Shown one piece after another: positions 9,469 through 20,148 of a stretch of 64,000 bases of DNA. Source of the DNA: Erysipelotrichaceae bacterium (GTDB taxonomy: Bacteria > Bacillota_I > Bacilli_A > Erysipelotrichales > Erysipelotrichaceae); contig JAAZCQ010000037.1 in NCBI GenBank assembly GCA_012513225.1, positions 1-64,000 of the forward strand, given 5' to 3'. The position numbers and the translations under genes are program-made. Positions within the stretch are counted from its first letter, which is position 1, and each line of letters starts with the position of its first letter. The notes below the pieces were generated by a model that saw only the letters and a program-made list of their open reading frames with translations, had not been told where the DNA came from and searched no databases.

Positions 9469-10134
9469 TTAAAATGGCATTGTTATTGTTTTTTCTTCTT
9501 TTAAATTTCCATTGTCTATTTTATTAATAGTAATAGTTTTATTATCATAATCAACTGCTACTTTATAATTTGCATCTTCCCTATCAAATTGAGCATTACC
9601 CGCTTCTTTATCATAAGCTATATCATAATAATAATAATTAGTATCTAAAATATTTGATAAAATAGCAATTGCATATTCTGCTTTTGCTACTTCTTCAACC
9701 TCCAAAATAGTAAAACCACCATTTTTAGTAATATTTGTGAATAAATCAGTACCTACTCCATCGTAGTTATAATCATAATCTATACTAATATCAAGATTAT
9801 AATAATCTAAATCTGTAGTGTAATATAAGCTTGGTTCATCATCTACAGCTCTTGCTGCATAGAATCCTGGCCTAATCATATTTAAGTTATCATCAAAAAG
9901 ATTATTGTCATCAATATCTGTAACTTTTAAATGTAATGTAATATATTTATCATCTGTTATATTATCAATATAAAAAAAATATTTATCATTATATAATCCA
10001 TAAGTTCCATTTACATCTTCTTGAGTTCCTTCAGCTGTTTTAAAGTAATCCAAAGCAGTTGTTTTTTTCTCTTTTGAGCCTGAACATCCTACTAACATTA
10101 TTGCTAGTAATAGTATAATTAAAATCTTCTTCAT
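9469..10134 (-). CDS. Putative lipoprotein, paralogue of the gene at 11545-12222
   Basis: I recognise no family. The 221-residue product begins with a lipoprotein signal peptide (MKKILIILLLAIMLVGC), with lipobox LVGC at about residues 14-17, and then a short KEKK spacer. The mature part is rich in Asp and Tyr (SIDYDYNYDG, NYYYYDIAYD) and is predicted to be extracellular and membrane-anchored. It shares many blocks with the protein at 11545-12222, including GTQEDV, LYYTTDL, GGFT..EVEEVAK.EYAI and QFDR. The two are duplicates separated by a flavoprotein gene. Acidic clusters might bind a cation; this is a guess. Confidence 0.75.
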   Translation of the reverse strand: MKKILIILLLAIMLVGCSGSKEKKTTALDYFKTAEGTQEDVNGTYGLYNDKYFFYIDNITDDKYITLHLKVTDIDDNNLFDDNLNMIRPGFYAARAVDDEPSLYYTTDLDYYNLDISIDYDYNYDGVGTDLFTNITKNGGFTILEVEEVAKAEYAIAILSNILDTNYYYYDIAYDKEAGNAQFDREDANYKVAVDYDNKTITINKIDNGNLKEEKTITMPF

Positions 10135-10187
10135 AGTACACCTCCAACTATAGAGACATTATATTATAAAATATTCGTAATATACAA

Positions 10188-11360
10188 TTAAATAGATTCC
10201 CCCGCAATGTAGCCACTAATAAATGCCAATGTTAAATTATATCCACCTATTGGTCCATGCATATCTATTATTTCACCACAAATACTTAAATTACTTACTT
10301 TTAATGATTTCATGGTCTTTGAATCAATCTCATTTGTTTTAATTCCACCTGCAGTTACTGTTGCTTTTTCAATAGGCAAAGAATCTAATATATTAAATCT
10401 AAAATCTGTTAGATTCTCATTTATTTTTAATAATTCTTTTTTACTTATCTCTTCCATATTTCTTTCTTGATTGCTTACTAAGTAATCTATCCATCTTCTT
10501 GGACCTAAGTTTTTAACATTATCTTTTAATCTTTTTTTATAAAACTCTATATTTTCTATAGTAGTTATTTTAATTTGTACTTTTTTATTTTTTCTTAAGT
10601 TAAGTACAACTTCTTCAGAAAGCTCTAATATTATTGGACCACTTAAGCCAAAATGAGTAATTATTAAATCTCCTTGAACTTGCTTTTTTAATTTGTTATC
10701 TACAATTAGCCCAACTTTAATATTAGATAATGATAGACCCATTAAATATTTATCTTGTATTACTTTATCATTGCTGACTAGTGCAACCTCAGTTCCATAA
10801 AGCTTAGTTAAAGAATGTCCTACCCTTTTTGCAAGTTTGTACCCAAATCCATTTGACCCTGTTTTAGGAAATGATTTTCCTCCACAAGTTAATATAAAAT
10901 GATCTCCATAAATATTTCCCATATTTGTTTTTACACCTAATATTTGATTATCTTTTATTATCCAATCATATACTTCATGATTTAATTTTATATCCACTTT
11001 ATTTTCTTTCATTTGATTTTCTAATACATGTAATATTGAAGATGCTTTATTACTTTTTGGAAACACTTTATTATTATCTTCTTCTATTAATTCACAATTT
11101 CTTTCTATAAAAAAATTCATTAAGTCTTTTATAGAAAATTTATTTAATGAATAATACATAAACCTAGTTGATTTACTACAATTATTTATAAATTCATCTA
11201 CACTTTTATTATTTGTTAAATTACATCTTCCATTACCGCTCATTAAAAGTTTAATACCTAACTGGTTATTTTTTTCTAATAATATAACTTTATTATTCTT
11301 ACTGGCACTAATACTGGCCATCATTCCAGATGGGCCTCCTCCAATTACTATTACTTTCAT
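10188..11360 (-). CDS. BaiN/HI0933-family FAD-dependent oxidoreductase
   Basis: Two-dinucleotide-binding-domain flavoprotein of the HI0933/YhiN family. The FAD-binding loop GGGPSGMMAS is near residues 7-16. The family signature KLLMSGNGRCNLTN follows, then CGGKSFPKTGSNG in the middle and CGEIIDMHGPIGGYNL near the end. The length of 390 residues is typical. ATG 11360 is chosen because GAGGT lies immediately upstream, inside the longer TTG-started frame. BaiN, a member of this family in a clostridium, acts on bile-acid intermediates, but most members have no assigned substrate and I do not infer one. It lies between two paralogous lipoprotein genes in the same direction. Confidence 0.88.
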   Translation of the reverse strand: MKVIVIGGGPSGMMASISASKNNKVILLEKNNQLGIKLLMSGNGRCNLTNNKSVDEFINNCSKSTRFMYYSLNKFSIKDLMNFFIERNCELIEEDNNKVFPKSNKASSILHVLENQMKENKVDIKLNHEVYDWIIKDNQILGVKTNMGNIYGDHFILTCGGKSFPKTGSNGFGYKLAKRVGHSLTKLYGTEVALVSNDKVIQDKYLMGLSLSNIKVGLIVDNKLKKQVQGDLIITHFGLSGPIILELSEEVVLNLRKNKKVQIKITTIENIEFYKKRLKDNVKNLGPRRWIDYLVSNQERNMEEISKKELLKINENLTDFRFNILDSLPIEKATVTAGGIKTNEIDSKTMKSLKVSNLSICGEIIDMHGPIGGYNLTLAFISGYIAGESI

Positions 11361-11482
11361 AATTACCTCAAACAAAATTATTCTAACATATATAAAAATA
11401 TATTAATAATAATTATTTAAACGTATAATTACAAGTTACTTAGACATTTTCTTATAATATATTTTTATACATATCATATTTT

Positions 11483-11510
11483 AAAAGTAGTAACTTTTTA
11501 AGCTACTACT
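11483..11510 (-). terminator. Hairpin downstream of the second lipoprotein gene
   Basis: Arms AGTAGTA and TACTACT enclose an 11-base loop, and TTTT follows on the minus strand. It lies 35 bases beyond the stop of the gene at 11545-12222. The T-run is short, so termination may be partial. Confidence 0.5.
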
Positions 11511-11544
11511 CTTACTTTTTATATATTTAAAAAATGAAAGGTTT

Positions 11545-12222
11545 CTAATATCCAAATGACATTTTTATTTTTTTATATTCTTTTAGTTCTTTCCCATTTA
11601 CTTTATATATTTTTATAGTTTTATCACTATAATTTGCAATTGCTTTATATAAAGCATTTTTTCTGTCAAACTGAGAGCCTTCTAATTCTTTATCATATGG
11701 TATGTCATAAAAATAATAGTTAGTTTTTATAATGTTAGATAAAATTGAAATTGCATATTCTGTTTTTGCAACTTCTTCAACTTCTGAATCAGTAAAACCT
11801 CCGTCTTTAGTTATATCAACAAACAATTCATCTTCTGCCCAATCATAATAGTATTCATAATTTATATCAGTCTTAAGATTATAATAACTTAAATCAGTAG
11901 TGTAATATAAATATGGCTCACTTTCCAAATATACTACATAATTTTCTTTTGGCTTAATTAAATTTGTTTTTTTATCATAAATACTTTTATCATTAATATC
12001 AGTAATTTTTAAGTTTAATATAATATATTTATCTTCTGTTAAATTTTCAACATTAAAATAGTAATGAGTATTATACATACCTACTTCATAAAATCCTTCC
12101 ACATCTTCTTGAGTTCCATCTGTTTCTTTAAAATAACTAAAAGCCTTTTTTTCATTAGAACAGCCTACTAAGATAAATATAAGAGATAATAAAATTAAGA
12201 TATTTTTCAAACCTTTTTTCAT
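11545..12222 (-). CDS. Putative lipoprotein, paralogue of the gene at 9469-10134
   Basis: No recognised family. The product has 225 residues with a signal peptide and lipobox (FILVGC). The mature domain aligns along its whole length with the protein at 9469-10134: YFKETDGTQEDVEG, TEDKYI, LYYTTDLSYYNLK, DGGFTDSEVEEVAKTEYAISIL and SQFDRKNALYK all have close counterparts. An aromatic and acidic core (INYEYYYDW) is shared. It is an exported, membrane-anchored protein of unknown job. The BaiN-like gene lies between the pair, so they probably arose by duplication followed by insertion or rearrangement. Confidence 0.75.
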   Translation of the reverse strand: MKKGLKNILILLSLIFILVGCSNEKKAFSYFKETDGTQEDVEGFYEVGMYNTHYYFNVENLTEDKYIILNLKITDINDKSIYDKKTNLIKPKENYVVYLESEPYLYYTTDLSYYNLKTDINYEYYYDWAEDELFVDITKDGGFTDSEVEEVAKTEYAISILSNIIKTNYYFYDIPYDKELEGSQFDRKNALYKAIANYSDKTIKIYKVNGKELKEYKKIKMSFGY

Positions 12223-12295
12223 ATGTCTACCCCCAATTCTAAAATTATTATATTTAAATAAAAAATAATTTACAATTCTTACGAACCCATTAATT

Positions 12296-12323
12296 AAAAA
12301 AGCTAAATGTATAACATTCAGCT
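12296..12323 (-). terminator. Terminator after telA
   Basis: On the minus strand AGCTGAATG and CATTTAGCT form a hairpin (one wobble) with a 5-base loop, followed by six T residues. It lies 7 bases beyond the telA stop and ends the xpaC-telA operon. Confidence 0.85.
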
Positions 12324-12329
12324 TAAGAT

Positions 12330-13496
12330 TTAACTATTTTTTACTTCTAGTAATTTTTTATTTAATTCTTCTTCAATTCTAGATAATTCTTTTTGTGCTT
12401 CTGCACGTTTTGTTCTACCATCTTCTTGTATTTTTAATACTTCATCTAAAGTAGAAATTAGTTGATTATTAGTGTGTTGCAATGTCTCAAGATCAACAAT
12501 ACCTCTTTCAGATTCTTGTGCAGTTTGAATTGTTGCTTGTTTTAATGTTTCAGCATTTTTCTTTAATAATGCATTAGTCATATTTGTCACTTCTCTTTGA
12601 GCTTCCATAGCTTGTTTAGAATGACTTACACCTAAAGCAAGAACCATTTGAGATTTCCATAAAGGAATTGTATTAACTAAAGATGATTGAATTTTTTCGG
12701 TCATCAAAATGTTATTGTTTTGTACTAATCTAATTTGAGGAGCCATTTGAATAGAGATTACTCTTGTTAGTTCCAAATCATGTAGTTTCTTTTCAAAACG
12801 ATTTAATGCATTTGCTAAATCATTTGCAGCTTGAGAGTCTTCTGCTAAACCAGAATTTTCTGCTTTTTCTACTAATTCCGGTAATTTAGTTTCTTTAATT
12901 TCTTTTATTTTCTTTTGTCCCGCAATTATATACATTGATAATTCTTTAAAATTAATTAAATTTTTATCATAAAGTTGATCTAATAAAGCAATATCTTTAA
13001 GCAAAACAATTTGATGTTCTTCAAGAAGTCTAGATATTTTATCTACGTTTGCTTCTGCTTTATCATATCTAGCTTTCATGGCCATTATTTTATCGCCACT
13101 TTTTTTGAACATTCCTAATATTCCACTTTTTTCTTCTTCACCACTAAATCCTTTTAATTCTATAACGAGATTGCTCATTAAATCTCCAATTTCTCCCAAG
13201 TCTTTAGTTCTAACATTTTCTAAAGCACTATCAGAAAAACGTGCAATCTTTTTTTGTGCGTCAGATCCATATTGCAGTATCACATCTGATTCAGTAATAT
13301 CTATTTGTTTCGAAAAATCTTCAACCATCTTCTTTTCTTCTGCAGTTAAAGTACTTTCATCAAATTGTGGTACATAACTAGACCCAATAGTTTTCTCTTG
13401 TTGCATTGTGTCAAGTTCACTAACTTTTATTTCATTTTTTTCACTTTCTTCTTCTGGTTTTAGAGTAAGAGTGATTGCTTCTTTTTCTTCTGACAT
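12330..13496 (-). CDS. telA: TelA/KlaA-family toxic anion resistance protein
   Basis: A 388-residue, almost wholly helical cytoplasmic protein of the TelA family (called toxic anion or tellurite resistance, though the biochemical role is unknown). Recognisable parts are SDVILQYGSDAQKKIARFSD near residues 73-92, a long coiled-coil middle, the typical SLVNTIPLWKSQM segment at about 275, and a charged C-terminal coiled coil. It is the last gene after xpaC, a small protein gene and a tandem-AAA gene, 62 bases behind the latter, with a terminator after it. TelA and XpaC are regularly neighbours in Firmicutes, which points to a joint envelope-stress role rather than tellurite handling specifically. 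Confidence 0.9.
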   Translation of the reverse strand: MSEEKEAITLTLKPEEESEKNEIKVSELDTMQQEKTIGSSYVPQFDESTLTAEEKKMVEDFSKQIDITESDVILQYGSDAQKKIARFSDSALENVRTKDLGEIGDLMSNLVIELKGFSGEEEKSGILGMFKKSGDKIMAMKARYDKAEANVDKISRLLEEHQIVLLKDIALLDQLYDKNLINFKELSMYIIAGQKKIKEIKETKLPELVEKAENSGLAEDSQAANDLANALNRFEKKLHDLELTRVISIQMAPQIRLVQNNNILMTEKIQSSLVNTIPLWKSQMVLALGVSHSKQAMEAQREVTNMTNALLKKNAETLKQATIQTAQESERGIVDLETLQHTNNQLISTLDEVLKIQEDGRTKRAEAQKELSRIEEELNKKLLEVKNS

Positions 13497-13558
13497 TTTT
13501 ATTCCTCCATATTATCTTTATTTTATTTTATTAATTTATTAAGTCAATTAAATATATA

Positions 13559-15616
13559 CTAATTTAATCTAAAATCTTCTAATTTTAACTCATCAATGTT
13601 TGCTTCAGGATTTTTTACAAGCCTATCTGATTGAGCTAGTATAGCTTCTTCTACTTCATTACGTGCTAATCTACCATTTCCACTTTCTTTTGAATTATTA
13701 GCTTGTACTTTTGTAAAGTAATCTTGTAAGGGTTGTTTTGCATTTTCATCAACCTTGTATCCTTTACTTGTAGCTATTACTAAAGCAATCTTCATTAGTT
13801 CTTCTCCTGTATAATCAGGGAAATTTATAACATTTGGAAATCTAGATTTTAATCCTGAATTTGATTCTAAAAATGTAGACATTTCTTTTGAATATCCTGC
13901 AAGTATAACAATTAAATCATCACGATAATCTTCCATAGCTTTTACAAGTGTATCAATAGCTTCAAGTCCAAAGCTATCATCTTTTCCTCTATATAAAGAA
14001 TATGCCTCATCAATAAATAAGACTCCACCTAATGCAGATTTAATAACTTGCATTGTCAAAGGTGCAGTATGTCCTACATATCTTCCAACAAGATCAGCCC
14101 TAGTTACCTCTACTAGTTGTCCTTGACTTAATGCTCCAATTGCTTTCATATATCTACTTATTAATCTTGCAATTGTAGTTTTTCCTGTACCAGGATTACC
14201 AGTAAATATCATATGCTTGCTGACATCACTTGTTTTCATACCTTGTTGTTTTCTTTTCTCTTGAATTAAAATATGACTTTGAAGTGATTTTATATAATTT
14301 TTAACCATATCTAATCCAACAACTTCATCTAACTCTGCATTTATTTCTTCTAATATTTTTTCTTTATCATCCTTTTTAATTAAATTAATTTCTTCATCAT
14401 TAATTAAAGCAATAGGCAAATCATTTTTTACTAATATCTCTACAGTTTGATTTTTTTCTAATAAATCATGTAATTTTACTTGAGACAATTCTTTATAAAA
14501 ACTATTTATATAATCATTTATTGATTCAATCCCATTATGTTTGTCATATGATTTTAATATAAATTGTTTTATATCTTCATTAATAACTAGATTAATATAT
14601 AAGTTATTATTACTCTTTTTTTCAAGTTCAAAAAGTTTATTATCAATAATTTGAATAATATATTTTTCTTCAATTGGTTTTAACTCTATCACATCATTTA
14701 TATAATCCATAAATGTTGTTCCAAAGGAATCAACAACTTTTGAGAGTTTTTGATTTGTAATAAATACTAAGTATTTTCCTGCAACACTTAAAGAATTAAC
14801 TGCTTGAGATACTAAACCAGTTTGTGATTCAACTAGTTGTCCTTGATTTACAATATATCTTTTATTAAGCATCATTTTTCCAGTAGTTACTAATTCATTA
14901 ATCATTCTTAAAAATGGTGCATAGCCTACTTCAAAATTCTCAAAACAAATAACAGCTCCCTTACCTTTTATAGCCATATATAAGTCTTGTAAAAACAATT
15001 GTTCTTGAGATGAAGATGTGTATAATCCCATATCTATTGTATATACTTCATCACTTAGTAATATTTGTCTTTTATATAAAGCTCTTGTAGCTTTAGTAAT
15101 TAGTGTGTGTCTTCCTGAACCAGTATTACCTCTTACAACAAAAGAATTACTAGCTTTATCATTATCAAGTTTCATTACAAAAGGTCGTCTAAAAGCAACA
15201 ATAATAGAATCTATTGCTTCTGGTTGTCCAATTATCTCATTATTTAGTTCTAATTTAATTTCATCTAAATGATCTTTTGAAACTTCTTTTGTAGTAACAA
15301 TTAATTCTTCTTTAGGTTCTAATTTAACTCCAAAATCTTTTTCTATTTCAGCTTGAAGTCTATTTAAAGCTTCTTCATTAAGCCCATCTTTACTTACTTG
15401 TTTAGACATTGCAACCATTTCATCAAGATCTTTTTGTTGCTTTTTTAATATTGAATTTAGCTCATTCATCATGCTATTAGTTTCTTTTACAGTACCATCT
15501 TTATTTTCTAGATAATCTTTAGCATTGACTGAATCATAAGTAGCCCCTCGATCCTTGCCTAAAATTTCCTTCATTAGCCTTTCTTTTTCTTTAGTTATAT
15601 CATCCCTTTTTGACAT
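13559..15616 (-). CDS. Tandem AAA+ ATPase, CbbX/SpoVK-like C-terminal domain with degenerate N-terminal AAA domain
   Basis: A 685-residue protein with three parts. Residues 1-120 are a charged, probably coiled-coil region. Residues about 125-385 look like a ClpB/ClpC-type AAA domain (IIGQPEAI at 128-135), but the P-loop reads GNTGSGRH (163-170), with no Lys-Thr, and the Walker B position reads ICFENF (223-228). This domain is therefore probably unable to hydrolyse ATP. Residues 425-685 are an intact CbbX/SpoVK-type AAA+ domain: GNPGTGKT at 473-480, LFIDEA at 533-538, and a likely arginine finger in GLKSRFP. GAGGTG precedes the ATG. The gene lies 4 bases after the small gene and before telA. 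It is probably a remodelling motor acting on TelA/XpaC or a membrane target; the target is inference. Confidence 0.85.
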   Translation of the reverse strand: MSKRDDITKEKERLMKEILGKDRGATYDSVNAKDYLENKDGTVKETNSMMNELNSILKKQQKDLDEMVAMSKQVSKDGLNEEALNRLQAEIEKDFGVKLEPKEELIVTTKEVSKDHLDEIKLELNNEIIGQPEAIDSIIVAFRRPFVMKLDNDKASNSFVVRGNTGSGRHTLITKATRALYKRQILLSDEVYTIDMGLYTSSSQEQLFLQDLYMAIKGKGAVICFENFEVGYAPFLRMINELVTTGKMMLNKRYIVNQGQLVESQTGLVSQAVNSLSVAGKYLVFITNQKLSKVVDSFGTTFMDYINDVIELKPIEEKYIIQIIDNKLFELEKKSNNNLYINLVINEDIKQFILKSYDKHNGIESINDYINSFYKELSQVKLHDLLEKNQTVEILVKNDLPIALINDEEINLIKKDDKEKILEEINAELDEVVGLDMVKNYIKSLQSHILIQEKRKQQGMKTSDVSKHMIFTGNPGTGKTTIARLISRYMKAIGALSQGQLVEVTRADLVGRYVGHTAPLTMQVIKSALGGVLFIDEAYSLYRGKDDSFGLEAIDTLVKAMEDYRDDLIVILAGYSKEMSTFLESNSGLKSRFPNVINFPDYTGEELMKIALVIATSKGYKVDENAKQPLQDYFTKVQANNSKESGNGRLARNEVEEAILAQSDRLVKNPEANIDELKLEDFRLN

Positions 15617-15620
15617 TGAT

Positions 15621-16142
15621 TCACCTCAAATCTTTTGATTCATAAAATTCTTGTATCGCATCTTCAACAATTATTTTAAATAAATATAAGCCATCCTTAT
15701 ATCCTTTTAATTTCATATCTAGTAGTATATCAACTATGCTTATCTTTGCTTCTTCTAAATAGCACTCTTTAAGTATTAAATCTATTTCTTCATTGCTTTT
15801 TAATTTATCGTAATATTTATTTAAAGCTTCTTGGTGACCATCTTTATATAATCCCATTTGTCTTGCTTCATACTCTATATTTAAAATTGAATTTTTAACA
15901 TAATTACTTATAAATTCATTTTCTGTTTCTTCGTATATATTATCTTGTTCTTCTTTGTTAACTTTTTTTATAAGCATACTTGTATAATCACTATATCCTT
16001 TTTTAGTAGCAACTTCATTAAGCTTACTTTTTAGTTGTGAATTAAACTCAGTATTTGTTTGATTTATAATTTCAGAATCATCATTATCTAATTTTTCTAA
16101 CATTTCATCAATTACTTTTAATAAATCCTTGTTTTCACTCAT
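15621..16142 (-). CDS. Uncharacterised helical protein in the xpaC-telA operon
   Basis: I do not recognise a family. The product is about 173 residues, highly charged and predicted all-helical, with no signal peptide, membrane segment or cysteine pair. ATG 16142 is chosen over the GTG at 16154, which would sit right against the AAGGG site; from the ATG the spacing is about 11 bases. The start overlaps the last 8 bases of xpaC and the stop is 4 bases before the AAA gene, so translation is coupled to both. The position between a membrane protein and an AAA motor suggests an adaptor or linker, which is inference only. Confidence 0.7.
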   Translation of the reverse strand: MSENKDLLKVIDEMLEKLDNDDSEIINQTNTEFNSQLKSKLNEVATKKGYSDYTSMLIKKVNKEEQDNIYEETENEFISNYVKNSILNIEYEARQMGLYKDGHQEALNKYYDKLKSNEEIDLILKECYLEEAKISIVDILLDMKLKGYKDGLYLFKIIVEDAIQEFYESKDLR

Positions 16143-17199
16143 CAGTAGCACCACCCTTAAATTGTGAAAGCCTATTGTCCCCTGCTAAGCCATCTTTTTT
16201 TAGTAATGATTCAAGTGTTGATATGTCAGCTGATAAATTAATAAAATCTTCTTCACAAAGACTTGCAGCTAAAGTTTTCATAGCTTCATTTACTAATGTT
16301 ACATTTTTATTTAATTTTTCTTTTGTAGAATTAAAATTCTCATGAGTTTGTGCTGTTTGTAATTCTTTGTATTGACTTAAATTATTAATAAGCATTGGTA
16401 AATAATACTTATATAATTTTGTAAGCTTTTCACTCTTCTCTGGAAACTTGCTTTCTATTTCTCCAATTTGTTTTAATAAAGCACTTGTTTCATATAAACC
16501 TTCTGAAATAGCTTCATCAGGTATTTCTATATTTAATTCATTTATTTTATTTATAAAACTTTCTGTATTTATAATTTCTTCTTTTTTAGTAGTTTCTTGT
16601 TTTTTCTCTTCTTTTTGAGAATCAAATATTTTAGAAGTATCTCTTTCATTAGCAAAAGCTATTAACCATTTTATTACTTGATCATATATATCTGTATACT
16701 TAGTTCCAAATTCTTCTAAAGAACAAACATAATCATCATTAATATAAACATTTAAACTTTTTAATGAAATATATGCAGTTCCTTTTAATCTAAGATTAAT
16801 ATCATTTATTACTGGTAGAGTTTCATTCTCATCAAAATAATATGCAAGTTTTTTATCTACAGCTTGAATGTCTTTTTTTGAATATGTTGGTCTATATGTC
16901 TTACTTCTTCCATATCGCTCTGTAGTATTTACAGTAGTATATCTACTTTTGTAATTATTTGTTTTATATGATCTTGTTTGTGTTGAATTAAAAGGACTAG
17001 AAATACTATCTTTATCTCTTTTATAACCAAATATAAAATAAGATATTACCCCTATAATTAGTACGGGCATTAGAATTCCAAGAATTTGTCCTAAAACGGA
17101 TAATATTCCGCCTCCAAAAATAAAAAACATAAGTATAATAAAACCCCAATTGTTTTTATCATTGTCCCTTTTATAATTTGGTCTATATCTATTAGGCAT
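16135..17199 (-). CDS. xpaC: XpaC-family membrane protein
   Basis: A 354-residue protein of the XpaC group (named after an old screen for 5-bromo-4-chloroindolyl phosphate hydrolysis; no enzymatic motif is visible here). An Arg/Lys/Asn-rich N-terminus is followed by two adjacent hydrophobic segments at about 18-38 and 41-58, then a basic, Tyr/Ser/Thr-rich linker (about 60-110) and a long helical cytoplasmic domain. AGGAAAT precedes the ATG. It is the first gene of xpaC, small gene, AAA gene, telA. The co-occurrence with telA is what identifies it most strongly, since XpaC proteins vary widely in sequence. Confidence 0.82.
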   Translation of the reverse strand: MPNRYRPNYKRDNDKNNWGFIILMFFIFGGGILSVLGQILGILMPVLIIGVISYFIFGYKRDKDSISSPFNSTQTRSYKTNNYKSRYTTVNTTERYGRSKTYRPTYSKKDIQAVDKKLAYYFDENETLPVINDINLRLKGTAYISLKSLNVYINDDYVCSLEEFGTKYTDIYDQVIKWLIAFANERDTSKIFDSQKEEKKQETTKKEEIINTESFINKINELNIEIPDEAISEGLYETSALLKQIGEIESKFPEKSEKLTKLYKYYLPMLINNLSQYKELQTAQTHENFNSTKEKLNKNVTLVNEAMKTLAASLCEEDFINLSADISTLESLLKKDGLAGDNRLSQFKGGATDE

Positions 17200-17220
17200 T
17201 TCTTATTTCCTTTCCCTAAC

Positions 17221-17249
17221 ATTATACTACTCTAAATCTTGATACTTTA
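17221..17249 (-). promoter_or_regulatory. Probable promoter of the xpaC-AAA-telA operon
   Basis: On the minus strand TATAAT (complement of 17221-17226) lies 21 bases before the xpaC ATG. A poor -35 (TAAAGT) sits 17 bases further upstream. The preceding gene ends in a terminator at 17261-17285, so the xpaC operon needs its own start here. Confidence 0.5.
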
Positions 17250-17260
17250 CTATTATAACT

Positions 17261-17285
17261 AAAAAGTGGTATTCAATACCACTTT
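17261..17285 (-). terminator. Terminator overlapping the stop codon of the 282-residue gene
   Basis: The arms AAAGTGGTATT and AATACCACTTT form a nearly perfect hairpin; on the minus strand five T residues follow. The hairpin overlaps the stop codon at 17284-17286. It separates the 282-residue gene from the xpaC operon. Confidence 0.85.
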
Positions 17286-18132
17286 AATTAGTTATTTCTT
17301 TTTCTTCTTTAGCCTGATTTTGTCCAGTGCATCTCCATAGTTCACTAAAGGACATAAACTTTATTTCCTCACTATTTAGTTTCGCTTGATTTCTTTGTTT
17401 TTTCACAATTCCATCATGAACTCTGTTAAGAATATCTTTATTTACCATATATTGAACATATAGTACCTTTTTTAACAAGAACCATTTAATAACCATTAAA
17501 TATATTGCATCAGTTTTATCTTCTAAATCAGTTAAAACATCAACAGCTTTGTCTCTGATTTCATTTGCACATTCTATAGCATTTTCTTTTAAGCTTTCAT
17601 AGTTTGTATAATCAGAATGATCAATACTTCTTTGAAGTGATCCTGCAGTAACACTGTATAACCTCTTGTATGCGTCAAATATAGATGTTGCATTATCCAT
17701 ACTAATCGCAACTATTTCATTTTTACAATTAGAAAAATCACTACCTGGTTCTGTCATGCTATAGTAATATCCTTTAGCAAATAAGTAGCCATATTTTTCA
17801 TAAGGAACTAATAATAGTGCCCTATCTGCATCATTTTTCTCCCCATAAATTATGTAAGGAAGAATAATCGGTTTTCCAGTAAGTTTAAATACATCTTTAT
17901 ATCTAATTATTTGATTAGATATTGCATCTTTGTTTACAGCCATCCTTAAATTAACACAAATTTTTGCTTGATTATCCTCTTCAGCAATTAATTTTAGTGC
18001 TTCTTTAATTGTTTCATCCATTTCTAGTTCATCAATATCTAGAATGTAATCTTCAAGGTATCCATTGAACTCACATTCATCTCCACCTTTTCTAACGTCC
18101 AGTTTGTTTTCTAGAATTTCGACAATTGCCAT
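17284..18132 (-). CDS. Uncharacterised soluble protein upstream of the xpaC operon
   Basis: Not recognised. The protein has 282 residues and no signal peptide or long hydrophobic segment. An acidic N-terminal part (LEDYILDIDELEMDETIKEA) is followed by a mixed alpha/beta middle with two hydrophobic strands (PIILPYIIYG, RALLLVPYEKYGYL), then a helical C-terminal part with basic patches. GAGGGAG precedes the ATG. It is transcribed alone, between zinc-ribbon membrane protein genes and xpaC, and ends in its own terminator. Conserved synteny with telA/xpaC would be needed to link it to them. Confidence 0.7.
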   Translation of the reverse strand: MAIVEILENKLDVRKGGDECEFNGYLEDYILDIDELEMDETIKEALKLIAEEDNQAKICVNLRMAVNKDAISNQIIRYKDVFKLTGKPIILPYIIYGEKNDADRALLLVPYEKYGYLFAKGYYYSMTEPGSDFSNCKNEIVAISMDNATSIFDAYKRLYSVTAGSLQRSIDHSDYTNYESLKENAIECANEIRDKAVDVLTDLEDKTDAIYLMVIKWFLLKKVLYVQYMVNKDILNRVHDGIVKKQRNQAKLNSEEIKFMSFSELWRCTGQNQAKEEKEITN

Positions 18133-18387
18133 GTTTTTCTCCCTCTTAGTCTTTAATTTTATTATATTTGATTTTATCCCAATTACAACTATTATATATA
18201 AATCACAAATGTATCTTTATGTTTATTATAACATTTAAATTTAAAGTTGTTATCATAATATAAATAATTAAATTTATATAATTTTTATTTATATCACATT
18301 ACATAAATTTAGTATTAATTATAGAGCTTATATTTAAATCTTTGTTTTGAATATTAATTTTTGCATAAAAAGGATTATATGGTTTTC

Positions 18388-19182
18388 CTAATTAGCCCAT
18401 TTTTCAATAGCATCATCACCTAGTGTTTGTAAATCACTAACAAGTGCTCCAAGTTCACTTATCATTCTTACTGTTTCATTTGTAGGCTCCGCTGTAAAAG
18501 ACACAAGTGCTTTATTACCAACAATCGAACTACTAGGACCTTCTCCAACATTTATTGGCATCCCTGTAGTTGCGGATGAGTATATACATAAAAAGAAGGT
18601 TTTTTTAAATACATTATATAATATGAAAGCAGCAATTATTAAAAAAATAAAGCCAACAAAAACATTTTTATCTAATATAAAAAATCCTAATAATATTAAT
18701 AAAATACCATTTATCAAAAAAAATAAGTTAAAGTTTCTTCCAATATAAGCTACTAAACCTGAGATAGAACTTATTTGTACTTCTTCATTTAAAGTACTTT
18801 TTTTTCCAATTCCATGAAATAGAATTCTCTTATTTGTGACAATTAAATAACCATCTGATGAAGGGCTATAACTTCTAGAACAATGGTATTCTTTTACTAC
18901 TTTTTCATTTTCAGATAAAACTAAATCTAAATAGTTTTGTTGAGGAATAATATTCCTTCTGTAATATTGATTTGCTCGATTATTATAATTCGTATTATTT
19001 GTGTTCTCTGAATTATTATAAGTTGTATTTGAATTGTTTGAATAAGTTGTAGTATTTTGAGTATTATTTGTTTTTGGTAAGCTGTTTTCAACTTGTTGAT
19101 TATCTTTAGAAACTTTTAGCCCGCAATTAGAGCAAAACTCTGCATCTTCAAGTAAATCAAAACCACATTGTGAACATTTCAT
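18388..19182 (-). CDS. Zinc-ribbon membrane protein with a PH-like domain
   Basis: A 264-residue protein. An N-terminal zinc ribbon (CSQCGFDLLEDAEFCSNCG, residues 3-21) holds two CxxC pairs. A low-complexity Asn/Thr linker follows at about 35-75. Next comes a segment typical of bacterial PH-like domains (DGYLIVTNKRILFHG, about 108-122), interrupted by two hydrophobic helices at about 150-195 and continued by a cytoplasmic C-terminus. It is probably an inner-membrane protein with both ends inside. It is adjacent to a second zinc-ribbon protein. The function is unknown; PH-like/zinc-ribbon proteins are often linked to envelope stress. Confidence 0.75.
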   Translation of the reverse strand: MKCSQCGFDLLEDAEFCSNCGLKVSKDNQQVENSLPKTNNTQNTTTYSNNSNTTYNNSENTNNTNYNNRANQYYRRNIIPQQNYLDLVLSENEKVVKEYHCSRSYSPSSDGYLIVTNKRILFHGIGKKSTLNEEVQISSISGLVAYIGRNFNLFFLINGILLILLGFFILDKNVFVGFIFLIIAAFILYNVFKKTFFLCIYSSATTGMPINVGEGPSSSIVGNKALVSFTAEPTNETVRMISELGALVSDLQTLGDDAIEKWAN

Positions 19183-19242
19183 ATTAGATATCTCCCTATT
19201 TCTAATTTAAATAATTACATACAATTTGTAAACATAAAACTT

Positions 19243-20148
19243 TTAATACAAAGTTAAATCAGTCCATTCTCCTTGTTTAGATGCAATATATTTACCATTT
19301 TCTATCTCAATCCAAGTATATCCTTCAGAATCTATTAGAGCATAAACATCATGGGTTCCCATTTTCACAAAACCAGAATCTGGTGCATTCTTAGAAGCCC
19401 AATCTCTAAGAAATAGATTATTTATAAGAACTTTAACCTTCCCTATTGATTCTCTTTTGTTTTCTTGGGTTGTATTTGTATTAGAGTTTGTTGAGGAATT
19501 ATTTACATTTTGTTTTTCAATTTGTTTTTCATTTGAAGGTTCATCTATATAGTAAAGTTTTGATTGTCCAAGATTTACTTTTATATGATACTTTTCAGCA
19601 AGTTTTTCATTATATACAAGTTTAGCAATTATCTCTTCTCCGTTTTTTAAATTGCTTTCTTTATTAAATTCTATTTTTACAGAATTTAATATTTCACTTA
19701 CTTTTAAAACATCATCATAATTTTCATATTTAGAAAAAGCACTTATTTTATCACTTTTTATATTATTATTTTTAAAGTTAATCATTCCATTATCTTTATC
19801 AAACATATATTCTGAATAACCATAATTATATACAGGATAGCCAATTAAATAATAATTGTCATATTCCCCGTTTAGTTCAACATAATAATCCACATATTCA
19901 TCAGATAAATCAATTGTAGCTATATATTTTGACTGTTCATTAAAATAATAAAATAATGGAATTAATAATAAAGAGGAAAATAATATTATCCATCCAATAT
20001 AAACTTTGCTTGAAGTTTTAGGCTTCTCTTGGTGAATAAATGAGTTTTTATATTTAACAGTTTTTTCTTCTATAATTAATTTCTTACCGCAATACGCACA
20101 TACTTTTGAATTATCCGGAATATTTTTACCGCAAAATCTGCAAAACAT
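19243..20148 (-). CDS. Zinc-ribbon, single-pass membrane protein with C-terminal SH3-like domain
   Basis: A 301-residue protein. The zinc ribbon CRFCGKNIPDNSKVCAYCG is at 3-21. One membrane segment lies near residues 50-66, then an external acidic/Tyr-rich region, an Asn/Ser/Thr linker near 215-230, and a C-terminal bacterial SH3-like domain (VKVLINNLFLRDWAS ... DSEGYTWIEIENGKYI). The SH3-like part would face the cell wall, as these domains often bind peptidoglycan, while the zinc ribbon is cytoplasmic. Such a layout suits an envelope sensor. It is upstream of the PH-like protein gene in the same direction, with a 60-base gap. I have no gene name. Confidence 0.78.
   Translation of the reverse strand: MFCRFCGKNIPDNSKVCAYCGKKLIIEEKTVKYKNSFIHQEKPKTSSKVYIGWIILFSSLLLIPLFYYFNEQSKYIATIDLSDEYVDYYVELNGEYDNYYLIGYPVYNYGYSEYMFDKDNGMINFKNNNIKSDKISAFSKYENYDDVLKVSEILNSVKIEFNKESNLKNGEEIIAKLVYNEKLAEKYHIKVNLGQSKLYYIDEPSNEKQIEKQNVNNSSTNSNTNTTQENKRESIGKVKVLINNLFLRDWASKNAPDSGFVKMGTHDVYALIDSEGYTWIEIENGKYIASKQGEWTDLTLY

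Follow-up and report, generated by a model that had tools for sequence, protein, structure and literature searches.

Four genes lie close together on the minus strand of the window (the whole stretch of 64 000 nucleotides that was analysed), in the order XpaC-like protein, small helical protein, tandem AAA protein and TelA, as given by the list of open reading frames (ORFs). The XpaC and small genes overlap by 8 bases, the small gene and the AAA gene are separated by 4 bases, and the AAA gene and TelA by 62 bases; ORFs, strand and distances all match the tight packing described in an earlier note on this DNA. Most starts have a purine-rich sequence upstream, resembling a ribosome-binding site. 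The features of the region are the following:

12300..12324, minus strand: terminator-like hairpin 3′ of TelA, an 11-pair stem followed by a TTTTTAATTAA-type tail
12330..13496, minus strand: TelA, 388 amino acids, proposed client or scaffold (PF05816, 406 bits, residues 58-383)
13455..13475, minus strand: short linear motif ITLTLKP near the TelA N-terminus (residues 8-14), within a variable tail of acidic character
13559..15616, minus strand: tandem AAA protein, 685 amino acids (ORF; family alignment of 20 proteins)
13577..14359, minus strand: AAA domain D2, residues 420-680, intact motor domain of the SpoVK/CbbX/EccA clade (TIGRFAM-type profiles, PDB CbbX, invariant residues)
14432..15289, minus strand: AAA domain D1, residues 110-395, of HSP100/Clp D2 type, degenerate, probable pseudo-ATPase (profile alignment, Walker motifs)
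15621..16142, minus strand: small protein, 173 amino acids, fast-evolving, probably helical, accessory (homologues between XpaC and AAA)
16135..17199, minus strand: long XpaC-family protein that may act as membrane anchor or adaptor (aligned with short XpaC proteins that match PF10112)
17263..17285, no single strand: terminator-like hairpin between XpaC and the 282-amino-acid gene (both strands, weak T run)
17284..18132, minus strand: 282-amino-acid protein (u282), member of a conserved, unnamed family and optional neighbour (family alignment, distribution, hairpin before XpaC)

The terminators proposed on either side of the four genes are also found, as hairpins at both ends, the one at 17263-17285 being a single bidirectional structure with a weak T run; terminator-like sites number 4 in the 12-kb region versus 1.7 expected from shuffles. 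With one hairpin 3′ of TelA and another between u282 and XpaC, a four-gene operon read as a single transcript is plausible, and u282 is probably transcribed separately from the XpaC-AAA-TelA set. u282 had been put forward as a further member of the set, a proposal that we do not retain. Our order-wide sample consisted of 98 genomes (94 of them placed on an rpoB tree, the named relatives being mostly Erysipelotrichaceae), and u282 is present in 36 of them, many without AAA or TelA, i.e. its distribution is wider and largely independent, which rules it out as a core member. The family has a mean column identity of 47% in its alignment and the AF2 model is confident (pLDDT 87). A Foldseek search with this fold returned nothing significant, and VIA-align against known structures gave weak rows (Z up to 6.0) with no interpretable match, the N-terminal part pointing to PD-(D/E)XK-type nucleases (not significant) and the C-terminal part to CorA-like helices. 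Upstream of u282, two zinc-ribbon proteins with hydrophobic stretches are encoded at 18388-19182 and 19243-20148, the first with a weak match to the GRAM domain; downstream of TelA, two paralogous predicted lipoproteins of about 220 amino acids (9469-10134 and 11545-12222) lie either side of an FAD-dependent-oxidoreductase-like gene.

The identity of TelA is certain, the gathering cut-off of PF05816 being 30 bits, and a PDB sequence search with the protein gave no convincing match. The XpaC label, in contrast, holds by family (16 of the 20 aligned relatives match PF10112, with E up to 0.1 and a best E of 2e-24, the scores of two short forms being 44 and 61 bits) and not for the window protein taken alone, which reaches 12.9 bits for a gathering cut-off of 29.8. 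The layout of this long form comprises a hydrophobic stretch (residues 17-60), an extra alpha/beta domain (108-184) and a helical XpaC domain (about 210-338). Its AF2 model is of low confidence (mean pLDDT 73, pTM 0.37), and the fold search carried out with it yielded helical-bundle noise only. The small protein shows about 20% identity beyond the genus, and the idea that it could be a homologue of XpaC or AAA was dropped after profile searches gave no match.

The tandem AAA protein

The family alignment comprised 20 proteins, including that of the window, to which the other 19 are 40-64% identical. Judging from profile matches, the protein is composed of two halves of different AAA lineages, an HSP100-type one followed by one of the SpoVK/CbbX/EccA clade. 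For D2 the scores were 321.5 bits with TIGR02881 (SpoVK), 259 with TIGR03922 (EccA) and 254 with TIGR02880 (CbbX), all of them under the respective equivalog cut-offs (422.95, 466.65 and 459.25), and a profile search matched PDB CbbX (3syk) with 285 bits. Walker A, Walker B, the GY sensor-1 signature (G574 and Y575), the loop tyrosine Y513, R592 and sensor-2, i.e. the second arginine finger (R649 and R652), are invariant in 20/20 proteins. So is N586, which aligns with the SNPGFRSR stretch of CbbX; position +4 from it is K/R590 (K in 15, R in 3, Q and A in one each) and position +6 is the invariant R592.

The best profile stretch of D1 leads to the second AAA region of ClpE, ClpB, ClpC and Hsp104 (best E 4.6e-19). 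Its Walker A reads GxxGxG[RK]H: position 170 is never S or T in any of the 20 proteins and the lysine is gone in 12 (position 169 is R in 11, K in 8, V in one). Walker B is mostly ENxE, E226 and N227 being the majority residues, and the active-HSP100 signature (GK[ST] in Walker A, DE in Walker B) is absent. Mean column conservation is 46% for D1 versus 74% for D2. Because the Walker A S/T is lost and Walker B altered in D1, while the D2 residues are invariant, the motor is most likely D2, with D1 as a pseudo-ATPase; of the two domains, D2 alone looks capable of ATP hydrolysis. The earlier picture of a tandem CbbX/SpoVK-like motor is therefore right for residues 420-680, which are intact, and wrong for residues 110-395 or so, which are Clp/HSP100 D2-like and degenerate.

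Longer AAA relatives, of about 1130-1210 amino acids and probably with three AAA modules, are found in Bacillus, Lysinibacillus, Paraclostridium and others (loci L123, L129, L130, L132 and L180) and have a weaker tie to TelA. A phage or plasmid origin of the tandem AAA was considered and rejected: each collection gave one match with about 80% query coverage, an unannotated faecal ‘Bacteriophage’ record and a Subdoligranulum plasmid record, and otherwise D2 alone was covered among the matches listed.

Co-occurrence and linkage of AAA, XpaC and TelA

The tandem AAA is present in 25 of the 98 genomes of the order (this includes G065, whose shorter copy was accepted after an iterative profile search). 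For the genomes on the rpoB tree, a strong TelA match was found in 25/25 genomes with AAA versus 7/69 without, 3 of those 7 being divergent, and an XpaC-family protein in 25/25 versus 3/69. At the genus level the figures become 17/17 versus 4/34 for TelA (p=4e-10) and 17/17 versus 1/34 for XpaC (p=1e-12). Pagel likelihood-ratio comparison of dependent and independent evolution gave p=2e-8 for AAA-TelA, 7e-10 for AAA-XpaC and 5e-8 for XpaC-TelA, values limited by a tree built from a single gene with a quick search. The co-occurrence with TelA and XpaC anticipated in the earlier note is thus seen for this AAA type. It is incomplete for the small gene, which had been presented as part of the set: 12 genomes of the order and 6 further loci have a homologue between XpaC and AAA, and XpaC abuts AAA where the gene is absent. 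Being present in roughly every second AAA genome of the order, the small protein is accessory.

One may object that these genes are merely neighbours in close relatives and covary by phylogenetic inertia, and it is true that one large clade of the family holds many AAA genomes. We regard this as very unlikely, however. AAA changes state 8 times on the rpoB tree (TelA 11 times), with isolated lineages G017, G057 and G065 in the other family; the association recurs in Clostridia and persists with unlinked genes; and the comparison gene u282 gave only p=0.012 in the same Pagel test. Among independent pairs TelA is never opposite to AAA, the 5 pairs that remain with well-supported branches being mostly concordant and too few for significance. 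Since the grouping recurs across many genera, it is not a chance assembly in a few close relatives. In a set of 33 genomes with AAA relatives from beyond the order (which nevertheless includes some Erysipelotrichaceae), 30 have TelA, the base rates of TelA in two Clostridia orders being 29/117 (25%) and 64/146 (44%); the three exceptions are one 1.0-Mb assembly and two genomes with other architectures. Three Lachnospirales genomes with three-domain relatives (G129, G266 and G280) have no TelA, so that the rule linking AAA to TelA is limited to the two-domain family and does not extend to every relative. Conversely, TelA and XpaC are found without tandem AAA in many Clostridia and, within the order, in G070 and G095, which implies that the motor is dispensable for some TelA function.

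The fact that D2 scores best with the SpoVK model (321 bits) could suggest a SpoVK-like sporulation chaperone, whose tie to TelA would reflect sporulating lineages. This is hardly credible: besides a score under the SpoVK cut-off, 17 of the 25 AAA genomes, including that of the window, are without SpoIVA, and the association of AAA with SpoIVA is weak and negative (8/25 AAA genomes versus 37/69 others; p=0.04 in the Pagel test, with opposite sign). A sporulation role was rejected on this SpoIVA profile.

As to gene linkage, 18 genomes of the order and 11 loci from named genomes have XpaC directly upstream of AAA, or of the small gene followed by AAA, and TelA is at most 3 genes from AAA in 11 of the order's genomes. 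In G054, G056, G057, G093 and G097 the genes are not linked, from which it follows that the co-occurrence is not a by-product of clustering or hitch-hiking. In several unlinked genomes TelA sits beside a short XpaC, in some cases together with LemA-like and TPM-domain genes, and the L112 series runs XpaC-long, small gene, AAA, short XpaC, TelA, LemA-like, TPM; this suggests that the LemA-like and TPM-domain genes are further members of the XpaC-TelA operon. The LemA-like gene and the TPM-domain gene that follow TelA are at 8733-10243 in L082 and at 11875-13322 in L112. That AAA, XpaC and TelA form one functional set, as first supposed from the window, agrees with the joint distribution of the three genes over the order, which also holds where they are not linked, and we consider a functional module to be well supported. 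In these gut bacteria, none of the genomes checked within the order has the motor without TelA and XpaC, however far apart the genes lie, so the three proteins probably make up one machine.

The TelA tail and a possible mechanism

The otherwise variable acidic tail of TelA contains a conserved motif of the [I/P]xLTLxP type, a candidate docking handle. Its core was found within the first 50 residues of 50 out of 57 TelA proteins, versus a mean of 5.9 and a maximum of 12 in 200 shuffles of the tails. The LTLxP-type motif is sometimes double in TelA (L051, L186, L194 and L204), and two XpaC-profile proteins (L044 and L202) bear one near the C-terminus. As a handle specific for AAA the motif is unsupported, for it is also present in AAA-negative genomes, mainly beside XpaC: among the TelA of 40 genomes without detected tandem AAA, a hand count gave 20/23 with the motif when XpaC is adjacent versus 4/17 otherwise. 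It may therefore serve XpaC or another partner, and could act as a peptide on which XpaC or the complex docks. On the TelA tree, partnership with AAA switches 5 times or more when supported branches are counted, and 11 times in the best tree; it is thus not confined to one TelA subfamily.

Published work connects XpaC-TelA of other Firmicutes to stress: in L. lactis its induction accompanies that of the CesSR envelope-stress regulon (PMC3139573), in B. subtilis the pair is part of the sigma-W regulon (PMC3498285), and disruption of telA in L. monocytogenes is reported to increase nisin sensitivity (PMC12791056). TelA has been proposed to build submembrane structures (PMC7824862). SpoVK-clade AAAs are dedicated chaperones, SpoVK serving MurG (PMC10659427). 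An association of TelA, XpaC and AAA was not mentioned in the literature searched, which excluded the main TelA genomics paper (Anantharaman 2012).

From the co-occurrence and this literature on stress regulons and chaperones, we arrive at a reading to which we give an even chance in its entirety, that of a dedicated AAA+ remodelling chaperone with XpaC as membrane anchor and TelA as client, acting in envelope stress. The long XpaC protein would anchor the assembly at the cytoplasmic membrane and recruit AAA, which would form a ring. The degenerate D1 and the N-terminal region would serve for assembly and client docking, and the intact D2 would hydrolyse ATP and draw the tail of the client through the pore by means of the YVGHTAP loop common to CbbX. 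TelA would be the most likely client, gripped at the variable tail of its N-terminus, where the [I/P]xLTLxP-type motif lies; the role of the motor would be to build up, take apart or recycle the TelA-XpaC complexes by which the envelope is protected in stress. Ring formation, recruitment to the membrane, the role of TelA as client and a stress role of the AAA-containing set are what we infer from these comparisons. A bolder version, which we put forward tentatively, is that a cross-clade tandem AAA (a dead HSP100-type domain joined to a live SpoVK-clade one) is an ATP-driven remodeller of TelA-XpaC membrane scaffolds that grips TelA by the N-terminal LTLxP, on a principle like that of Vps4 with ESCRT-III.

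The chief alternative is that AAA and XpaC are the working pair, AAA remodelling XpaC or activating a membrane or cell-wall enzyme, with TelA a parallel member of the stress module. AAA adjoins XpaC more often than TelA, which would fit XpaC as the client; of the three correlations, that of XpaC with AAA is the strongest (p=7e-10), and the relative SpoVK activates the cell-wall enzyme MurG (PMC10659427). On the other hand, no AAA genome of the order is without TelA, and a merely parallel member would not need to be so constant. We judge this pairing possible, though doubtful. The question matters because TelA is widespread in Firmicutes and tied to tolerance of cell-wall antibiotics and tellurite, so far without a mechanism. 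A motor that is never found without TelA and XpaC in the order makes such a mechanism testable, and AAA remodelling of TelA-XpaC scaffolds, if true, would be the first one for TelA.

Comparison with known systems

The Ter/TelA tellurite-resistance systems have the TelA family in common with our locus. Their proposed function, with TelA as a submembrane structural part blocking phage or xenobiotics (PMC7824862), invites the idea of a Ter-like barrier in which AAA would drive fast assembly of TelA at the membrane. We find this improbable. No TerB, TerC or TerD was found among the nine window genes scanned (9469-20148), which sets the locus apart from these systems; PADLOC matches were generic, at the ATPase level only; and AAA is rare in phage and plasmid records.

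With the HSP100 proteins (ClpB, ClpC, ClpE and Hsp104) the likeness lies in D1, which aligns over its full length with their second AAA domain; what sets it apart is the loss of the residues for catalysis in Walker A (S/T) and Walker B, and the protein has no counterpart of the first HSP100 AAA domain. The SpoVK/CbbX/EccA clade is closer: D2 has the Walker motifs, GY sensor-1, YVGHTAP/YIGHTAP loop, arginine finger and sensor-2 of CbbX. The tandem protein nevertheless adds the degenerate HSP100-type N-terminal half, stays under the three equivalog cut-offs and has XpaC and TelA as partners, instead of Rubisco, type VII secretion or spore proteins; unlike SpoVK proper, it is not confined to spore formers. 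Finally, the xpaC-yaaN (XpaC-TelA) envelope-stress operon of Bacillus, Listeria and Lactococcus contains both families, which are adjacent in many loci, but in the present case XpaC is longer, with the extra alpha/beta domain, and an AAA motor and sometimes the small protein are added. We thus view the AAA protein as a new form within the SpoVK/CbbX/EccA clade, whose known members have one specific target each and which gains a further partner set, and XpaC-AAA-TelA as a new form of the XpaC-TelA module, one equipped with a motor.
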